The notes under the pieces were generated by a model. The model ran no database searches, was not told where the DNA came from, and was given only the letters and a program-made list of their open reading frames with translations. Shown one piece after another: positions 26,014 to 45,035 of a stretch of DNA of 64,000 nt. The stretch spans positions 1 to 64,000 of the forward strand of contig JAUIGE010000033.1 in the NCBI GenBank assembly GCA_030430205.1, given 5' to 3'. Numbering within the stretch: position 1 is the stretch's first letter; every line of letters begins with the position of its first letter. This DNA is from Bacteroidia bacterium (lineage in GTDB: Bacteria; Bacteroidota; Bacteroidia; J057). A program made the position numbers and the translations under genes.

Positions 26014-26099
26014 TTGTTTCGGGTTTCGGGTTTCGAGTTTCGGGTTTCGGGTTTCGGGTTGTTGGAATCCACGGAACTCGAAACCCCAAACCCGAAACC
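26014..26099. repeat. Heptamer array GGGTTTC with inverted heptamer arm
   Basis: Five consecutive seven-base units at 26021-26055 (four GGGTTTC and one GAGTTTC), with degenerate units at each end. After a short spacer, 26075-26099 carries the inverted heptamers (GAAACCC/CGAAACC register). The two arms can pair into an imperfect long hairpin. It fills the 99-bp gap between two minus-strand genes. Confidence 0.8.
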
Positions 26100-34202: not shown

Positions 34203-34338
<136 letters not shown>

Positions 34339-40169: not shown

Positions 40170-40258
40170 TTTGCATTGGGCAGTGGGCAGTTTGCAGTGA
40201 GTTCATCATACTGATGGTCACCATTGCGGCCTGCCAACTGCCAACTCACGACTGCCAA
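40170..40258. repeat. Heptamer array TGGGCAG with inverted heptamer arm
   Basis: Units TTTGCAT, TGGGCAG, TGGGCAG, TTTGCAG at 40170-40197. After a 33-bp spacer come inverted units CTGCCAA, CTGCCAA, CTCACGA, CTGCCAA at 40231-40258. The period is exactly seven in both arms. It lies in the 102-bp gap between the convergent giant PKD gene and a lipoprotein gene and could act as a terminator-like hairpin. Confidence 0.8.
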
Positions 40259-40263
40259 CTAAC

Positions 40264-42823: not shown

Positions 42824-43711
42824 ATGTCACTCACCCAAATCTGGACCGGCTCCGACCACTACCTCTGCGACGCAGAGCTCGCACAGGCATTTCACATGGC
42901 ACGCGTGCTGGGCATGCCGCTATTGATAGAAGGTGAACCCGGTACGGGTAAAACCGAACTGCCGATCCAATTTGCGGAAAGCAATGGGCTTCCGCTTTTC
43001 ATCTATCCTGTGGGCTCAAAGAGCACGGTCGAGCAGTTTGTGGCCAAATTTGACCACGTCAAATACCTGCGCGACTCGCAGGTCGAAGTGCTCAACGCGC
43101 AGCGCAGCGAAAAGGGGCTGGAGCCCCTCAAGACGGGCGGGCGAAGCACCGAGCAGCTCGACGACTACGTCAATATGGCCCCTGGCGCCCAGGCTTTCAG
43201 CCACCCCAACTCCGTGCTGCTGATCGATGAGATCGACAAAGCCCCCCGGGAATTCCCGAACGACCTGCTCTTTGCGCTCTCGCATCGCAAATTTATCCTG
43301 CCGGAGTCCGGCAGGGTGGTCGAGGTCTCCGAGGCGGAGATGCCCGCCATCGTCATCACCTCCAACCGCGAGCAGGAACTGCCGACGGCATTTAAAGGCC
43401 GCTGCATTTACCATTATATCAGCTTTCCCGAGCCGGAGATGATGCGGCAGATTTTGGCCAAACATTTTCCACAAACCGATAAAGAGCTTGTGGATAAGTG
43501 TATATCTCTTTTCTATCAATTGCGGAAATTGGGCCTCGAACGCGCTCCCAGCACCCGGGAGCTACTTAATTGGCTAAAATATCTTCGCCATTATCCACAG
43601 GCCGAAGCGCTCTTGAAGGTGGAAGAAAGGGAAGGCATGGGCGTTTTGGTGAAGACGCAGGCGGATATGCGGAAGGTGGAGAAGGCTTTGAAAGGAAACT
43701 CCTATGTTTAA
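42824..43711 (+). CDS. MoxR-family AAA+ ATPase
   Basis: 295 aa. Walker A GEPGTGKT (G37-T44), Walker B VLLIDEID (D135-E136), sensor 1 IVITSNRE, and an arginine-finger region around FKGRCIYHYISFP. MoxR ATPases act with VWA-domain partners as chaperones for assembly of enzyme complexes or for cofactor insertion. The next gene is such a partner and overlaps by 8 bp. A well-spaced promoter motif is present upstream. The client is not evident from the neighbourhood. Confidence 0.92.
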   Translation: MSLTQIWTGSDHYLCDAELAQAFHMARVLGMPLLIEGEPGTGKTELPIQFAESNGLPLFIYPVGSKSTVEQFVAKFDHVKYLRDSQVEVLNAQRSEKGLEPLKTGGRSTEQLDDYVNMAPGAQAFSHPNSVLLIDEIDKAPREFPNDLLFALSHRKFILPESGRVVEVSEAEMPAIVITSNREQELPTAFKGRCIYHYISFPEPEMMRQILAKHFPQTDKELVDKCISLFYQLRKLGLERAPSTRELLNWLKYLRHYPQAEALLKVEEREGMGVLVKTQADMRKVEKALKGNSYV

Positions 43712-45035
43712 CTCCCTCCCCCAACACTTCCGCGATTACGGCCTCCAGGCCGACATCCGCACCCTTATGCTGCTGCGCAGGAGCATCGAGCGGGGGCTCG
43801 TCAATACGTTGGGAGATTTGTATCTCGTGCTGAAAGGCATCATCACCCATGATCCGAAGGACTACGGCCCGTATACGGTTGCGTTTTACAAATATTTTCT
43901 GAATATCGATATCAAGGAAGGGGAAATGCTGGAAAGTGCGATAGCGCGGTCGGAGGCTTTTAAGGAATGGGGAGAGCAGAGAGCAGAGAATAGAGAGGAG
44001 AGAGAAGAGGAGGATCTTAAGGAGTTGATTGAGGCATATTTGAATGAAATTCATCTGACGACTTACGATATCCAGGAGATTCTTTCGGGCGGTGATATAT
44101 TGAGGAATGACGATCCCTCCCGGGCCGATGGCCCGGCAGATCAGCCCGACCAGATGCCGGGTCAGATTGACCGGATGGCTGACTACCAGGATATTCCTTT
44201 GGAGGAATTGCTGGAACGCATGAAGGAGGTCATGCGGCAGCAGCAGCGCGCCCATAAGGGCGGCAATCACTGGGTGGGGCAAGGCGGCGTGTCGCCTTAT
44301 GGCAACCAGGGCGCCGCCAAAGGCGGCGTGAGGGTCGGCGGCGGTGGCGGCGGGAAGATGGCCCGCAAGGTCATTGGCGATAAAAACTTTTATCCCGTAG
44401 ACCTCAACGAAAGCCTCAAAGACGACAACATAGATGTTGCGCTGGCTTACCTCAAAGGCATCGAAGATGAAAGCGCACAGCAGTTCCTGGATATTCAGCT
44501 GACGATCAAAGAAGGGGCGAAAGAAGGCGGCTTGTTTTTGCCTTATGAGACAGAAAAAATCGAGCAAAAGGTCCAGGTGATCCTCATGATCGACAATGGC
44601 GGCTGGTCCATGAGTCCCTATACCCGCCTGGTGACCAAGCTCTTTTCGAAGATGAAAAGGCGCTTTGCGCATGAGCTGGAGACCTATTATTACCACAATA
44701 CGATCTATGGTGGGCTCTTTACGGACGTGCGGCGCACGCAGTATGTCTCCCTCGACAAAGTCCTCAAGGAGGACAAAAACTACAGTGTCTTCATCATCGG
44801 CGATGCCGATATGGCGCCTTATGAGCTGACGCGCGAAAGCGAGGCAGACTGGCAGCGGATCAAGGATCGCTTCAAGCGAGCCGTATGGCTCAATCCCATG
44901 ACGATGCGCTATTGGGCGGCATCGGATACGGTGAATCGCATCCGGCAGATCCTGCCGATGTTTCCGCTGACGCCAGCGGGGATCGAGAAGGCAGTGGAGT
45001 TGATGAACAAAAAGCGGCGCTTTGCGAAGCGCTGA
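43704..45035 (+). CDS. CoxE-like VWA-domain protein, partner of MoxR
   Basis: 443 aa. The N-terminal helical region (~1-200) contains an acidic segment encoded by heptamer repeats (EWGEQRAENREEREEED). Then come a Gly-rich linker (GVRVGGGGGGKMARKVIGDK) and a VWA-like domain from ~290 with VILMIDNGGWSM. The metal site is DNGGWSM (D297, S302) instead of the classical DxSxS, so metal binding may be altered. Start ATG 43704 overlaps the MoxR gene by 8 bp, supporting a MoxR-VWA pair. Change in heptamer number at 43972-44006 would shift the frame early in the protein. Confidence 0.85.
   Translation: MFNSLPQHFRDYGLQADIRTLMLLRRSIERGLVNTLGDLYLVLKGIITHDPKDYGPYTVAFYKYFLNIDIKEGEMLESAIARSEAFKEWGEQRAENREEREEEDLKELIEAYLNEIHLTTYDIQEILSGGDILRNDDPSRADGPADQPDQMPGQIDRMADYQDIPLEELLERMKEVMRQQQRAHKGGNHWVGQGGVSPYGNQGAAKGGVRVGGGGGGKMARKVIGDKNFYPVDLNESLKDDNIDVALAYLKGIEDESAQQFLDIQLTIKEGAKEGGLFLPYETEKIEQKVQVILMIDNGGWSMSPYTRLVTKLFSKMKRRFAHELETYYYHNTIYGGLFTDVRRTQYVSLDKVLKEDKNYSVFIIGDADMAPYELTRESEADWQRIKDRFKRAVWLNPMTMRYWAASDTVNRIRQILPMFPLTPAGIEKAVELMNKKRRFAKR
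43972..44006 (+). repeat. In-gene heptamer array related to the 34.2-kb locus
   Basis: Five in-register units: GAGAGCA, GAGAGCA, GAGAATA, GAGAGGA, GAGAGAA. Thirty-five bases is not a multiple of three, so unit gain or loss would frameshift the VWA gene. Units GAGAATA and GAGAGCA are identical to those at 34203-34279. Confidence 0.85.

Follow-up and report, generated by a model that had tools for sequence, protein, structure and literature searches.

Heptamer arrays inside coding DNA can be remnants of a repeat that has spread into a gene, phase-variable switches, or ordinary codons for a protein segment under selection. This question is raised by positions 43972-44006 of the window, the 64,000-nucleotide stretch of a Bacteroidia bacterium contig (JAUIGE010000033.1) that we analysed, for which a reading of the sequence alone had proposed the first two alternatives. 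Of these, spread into the gene is upheld by a codon-aware test, by a repeat vocabulary shared across the genome, by the absence of the repeat from 17 orthologues and by a second and clearer in-gene case, a 24-residue net insertion in a glycosyltransferase of the same genome; the switch does not fare well. With a probability of about 0.78, we consider the array to be a stray fragment of a family of GAGARNA repeats that is chromosome-wide and specific to the lineage and that overwrote a loosely constrained charged linker in a MoxR-associated VWA-like protein, where it is a passive passenger.

The array and its host gene

The units of the array, read directly from the sequence, are GAGAGCA, GAGAGCA, GAGAATA, GAGAGGA and GAGAGAA, and a period-7 array is also called here by Tandem Repeats Finder. 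The five in-register heptamers that the sequence-only reading had placed in a reading frame are indeed found there, inside the 443-residue ORF of the host gene, and the two unit types that it had matched to an intergenic array, GAGAGCA and GAGAATA, do recur in the forward arm of that array; a further type, GAGAGGA, is common to the in-gene array and the reverse arm (Table 1). All differences between the units are at positions 5 and 6, which are the variable positions of the repeat genome-wide. The five units are of four types, interruptions fall at units 3, 4 and 5, no more than two neighbouring units are identical and the longest perfect tract is 18 bp.

Table 1. Coordinates of the host gene, its partner and the GAGARNA arrays (window positions unless a contig is named)
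Feature	Position	Strand	Remarks
MoxR-type AAA ATPase (AAA_5)	42824..43711	+	Upstream partner; 8-bp overlap with host gene
Host gene, MoxR-associated protein	43704..45035	+	443 aa; probable VWA-like C-terminal domain (NorD/CoxE type)
Five in-register GAGARNA heptamers	43972..44006	+	Followed by partial sixth unit GAG; encodes approximately residues 90-102 (EQRAENREEREEE)
Intergenic 11-unit GAGARNA array	34203..34279	+	Forward arm
Intergenic 4-unit GAGARNA array	34309..34336	-	Inverted arm, opposite strand
GT4-type glycosyltransferase	contig 6, 103010-104194		Nine GAGARNA units

The label "VWA" given to the host protein by the sequence-only reading is weakly supported: the Pfam VWA_CoxE score of 18.8 bits is below the 26.4-bit cut-off, and the best PDB match of the structure model is the VWA domain of NorQ-NorD (E 8e-4, probability 0.99, TM ~0.3 on the target). 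The metal-site motif appears altered (DNGGxSM). In the structure model, which is mediocre (mean pLDDT 66), the array segment spans a low-confidence loop (residues 96-100) between helices 84-94 and 105-119. A promoter and terminator scan at the host gene gave nothing above chance. In a relative from a related genus (L012), moxR and the VWA-like gene are separated by a spacer built from a different heptamer dialect, GCCAACA/GCCAAAA, which also has an inverted arm; heptamer arrays, though with other units, thus accompany the gene pair in that relative too.

A genome-wide heptamer family

The three-unit GAGARNA pattern has 613 overlapping matches in the 7.24-Mb genome, versus 65 for the reversed pattern, and near-matches to a 28-mer number 157 versus 4 for the control. 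The same three-unit pattern is matched three times in the congener and not at all in 11 other genomes of the family. Among 296 genomes of the phylum the four-unit pattern is present in eight; this genome has 484 matches and the other seven have only 1-8 overlapping matches each, which makes the abundance of GAGARNA peculiar to this lineage.

We located the arrays in a 2.06-Mb sample from 13 contigs, 84% of it coding as judged by genes called with a home-made codon-score method. The sample holds 39 GAGARNA loci, of which 27 are fully intergenic, 10 overlap a gene end and two, those of the window gene and the glycosyltransferase on contig 6, lie wholly within genes. Median distances are 5.5 bp to flanking stop codons versus 62 bp to flanking starts. 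Of the 30 arrays that lie no more than 60 bp from a stop, 23 share the strand of the gene concerned, and an inverted partner is present at seven of the 39 loci. With many copies genome-wide, mostly intergenic and beside stops (37 of 39 not wholly in genes), GAGARNA has the properties of a dispersed heptameric SSR. It falls outside the G-quadruplex subtype, having no GGG tract; GGGTTTC, a different heptamer of this genome, has one.

Periods of 7, 14 and 21 greatly outnumber all others among the tandem repeats of the sample (81, 57 and 53 arrays, respectively). Other heptamer families, GGGTTTC foremost, are represented among these arrays, and 100-kb samples from four relatives contain few or no such arrays. 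No pure heptamer is commoner in the genome sample than GGGTTTC (canonical AAACCCG); its G tracts could form quadruplexes, and an inverted pair of arrays of this type occupies window positions 26014-26099. A third dialect, GGGCAGT/ACTGCCA, forms an inverted pair at 40173-40260, directly downstream of a large PKD-repeat gene. On contig 2 (5541-5620), GAGAGCA, GAGACTG, CCAACTG and AAAACTG succeed one another in a single 7-nt register, as if the register, rather than the sequence, were preserved. The window also carries a longer repeat at 363-602, with a 72-bp unit in 3.3 copies (92% matches).

Heptamers in other genes

Predicted ORFs contain 14 of the 189 heptamer-like arrays in the sample, some of them at doubtful starts. 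The clear cases are in loops or at the ends of an ABC-F ATPase, PBP1C, an MFS transporter, a PP2C-type protein, an ABC ATPase and a pyridine nucleotide-disulphide oxidoreductase, and their occurrence in such housekeeping-type genes argues for tolerated spread and against designed switching. In the ABC-F protein the heptamer-bearing linker has a length within the normal range, whereas the glycosyltransferase array, which has a 21-bp higher-order period and encodes ESREQRV heptads, is a net insertion of ~24 residues relative to nine homologues. By these alignments, in-gene heptamers arise by both insertion and replacement. Loss of one unit would truncate the glycosyltransferase at residue 184 of 394, and this gene is a better candidate for phase variation than the window gene.

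A more far-reaching proposal is that heptamer repeats in this lineage are copied into coding DNA by length-keeping templated replacement, so that heptads encoded by repeats are taking over the surface linkers of many proteins, and that the array in the glycosyltransferase might also be a contingency locus; we regard this as unlikely.

DNA repeat or protein constraint

The two possibilities can be distinguished by codon choice. When the synonymous codons of WGEQRAENREEREEEDLK were resampled according to the codon usage of the genome, five in-register units arose in 1 of 10^6 draws (P ~1e-6). Because codon usage alone yields five units only this rarely, the segment at 43972-44006 is a DNA repeat and not merely an acidic linker. 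Shuffling synonymous codons within 1401 genes, 30 times over, produced no array of at least four units, versus two observed. AGA accounts for just three of the 32 arginine codons of the host gene and all three are within the array. Since the five units vary only at the positions that are variable genome-wide, a likely source is the repeat pool of the genome, rather than local slippage followed by random mutation.

The host gene was compared with 17 orthologues that are 54-65% identical to it; a genome of the same family supplied one of them and public genome records the other 16. The linker, which runs from the conserved Trp 89 to the conserved helix that follows, is 20-23 residues long in the orthologues and 23 in the window gene, and in all 17 it is charged, equal or slightly shorter in length and aligned with no insertion. 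The GAGARNA repeat was not found in the linker DNA of any of the 17, where the best fit to the array is 18-24 of 35 positions versus 35 of 35 in the window gene. Given that the orthologues align with no insertion at the linker, repeat DNA appears to have replaced an existing charged linker, or to have been inserted with an offsetting deletion, leaving no net insertion. The closest orthologue is 65% identical, a distance at which the time and the steps of the replacement are not visible; the congener lacks an orthologue of the host gene and has only a 33% paralogue.

Whether the acidic segment is absent in relatives, as the sequence-only reading had asked, thus has a divided answer: the charged linker is kept and the heptamer repeat is missing in every orthologue. 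That reading had also held that other codons for the same segment in orthologues would point to selection on the protein. The orthologue linkers do use other codons, but the DNA-repeat reading survives because the codon choice in the window gene is far from what the protein alone needs. Selection at the protein level only, on an acidic, arginine-containing helix-loop that happens to use GA-rich codons, would fit the near-constant length and charge of the linker across the orthologues as well as the purine fraction of their linker DNA (0.52-0.71). It is difficult to reconcile with a P of ~1e-6 given the amino-acid sequence, with the restriction of AGA to the array and with the poor match of the orthologues to five GAGARNA units, and although a purely protein-level origin with unusual codons is excluded only statistically, we consider it improbable.

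A possible phase switch at the array

The prediction that gain or loss of one unit would shift the frame of the host gene is borne out by computation: removing one unit brings a stop after 105 residues and adding one brings a stop after 98, of 443, while removal or addition of three units preserves the frame. The array could therefore be a contingency locus, in which slippage of whole heptamers turns the gene off and on, and its 35 bp, not being a multiple of three, suit such a role. In-coding heptamer slippage can work in this way, as established for neuO of Escherichia coli K1, the alleles of which have 3-53 repeats, 20 being the commonest number (PMC13001214). The geometry is right, but of two features of SSR contingency of the neuO kind, a frame-shifting unit change and a long run of near-identical units, the host gene has the first and lacks the second. 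Against the 20 identical units of the commonest neuO allele stand two identical adjacent units and a perfect tract of 18 bp, on account of which frequent slippage would not be expected here, and the tract is broken at each of the last three units. Sister arrays in loops of housekeeping-type genes, those for ABC-F, PBP1C, PP2C and MFS proteins among them, likewise speak against a switch, and on this sequence evidence we judge a phase switch at 43972-44006 unlikely, at odds that are very low. The truncated-looking gene of L012 was considered as a phase-off example and rejected: it ends at the end of its contig, not at a broken array.

Least probable of all is a function of the in-gene heptamers as DNA or RNA sites, such as a sense-strand mRNA element, for the same regulator as would bind the intergenic arrays. 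The position of the arrays beside stops on the coding strand (23 of the 30 that lie within 60 bp) could reflect a role in RNA, but gene interiors are almost free of arrays, inverted partners occur at only 7 of 39 loci and there is no conservation across species.

Origin and implications

The favoured explanation remains that of a stray GAGARNA piece carried passively in the linker. Copying or a template switch at GA-rich microhomology may have brought it there, as may slippage that began from a seed, and its retention would be due to a linker in which nearly any charged and soluble sequence is tolerated and to a net length change that kept the frame.

The codon-aware test documents dispersed intergenic heptamers colonising protein linkers. 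As 21 bp of array encodes seven residues, proteins are altered in heptad steps, and the GAGARNA case is a testable model for the spread of a repeat family into genes and for its limits. A claim that 43972-44006 is a switch would mislead if accepted ahead of variation data.

Comparison with known heptamer systems

The STRR sequences of cyanobacteria are heptanucleotide tandem repeats and largely intergenic. GAGARNA shares both properties with them and differs in unit sequence and host phylum.

The heptamers GGGAATC of Xanthomonas and GGGGA(T/C)T of Nostoc are dispersed and degenerate, occur in arrays of 2-26 units (~180 arrays per Xanthomonas genome) with species-specific lengths, and are ~90% intergenic, near stops on the coding strand, with some inverted pairs and rare intragenic copies (PMC4692102). 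GAGARNA is likewise a degenerate 7-nt unit that is mainly intergenic, beside stops, sometimes inverted and in few cases intragenic, but it is without the quadruplex G tract and belongs to a different phylum. The TAACTGA direct repeats of Beggiatoaceae, Cyanobacteria and some Bacteroidetes lie between genes, with rare ORF copies mostly at protein ends, and in the BOGUAY genome they are mostly directly upstream of start codons (PMC4679880). GAGARNA arrays are similarly scattered between genes with rare copies in ORFs; their unit sequence differs and they are mostly directly after stops. In the host gene as in neuO, the heptamers are within coding DNA and a change by a multiple of three units leaves the frame intact, but neuO has many identical units near its 5' end and measured slippage (PMC13001214), whereas the five units of the host gene are imperfect and give no hint of slippage. 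GAGARNA thus behaves similarly to known dispersed heptamer repeats while its unit sequence is different, and the copy in the host gene is a modest, if instructive, case.
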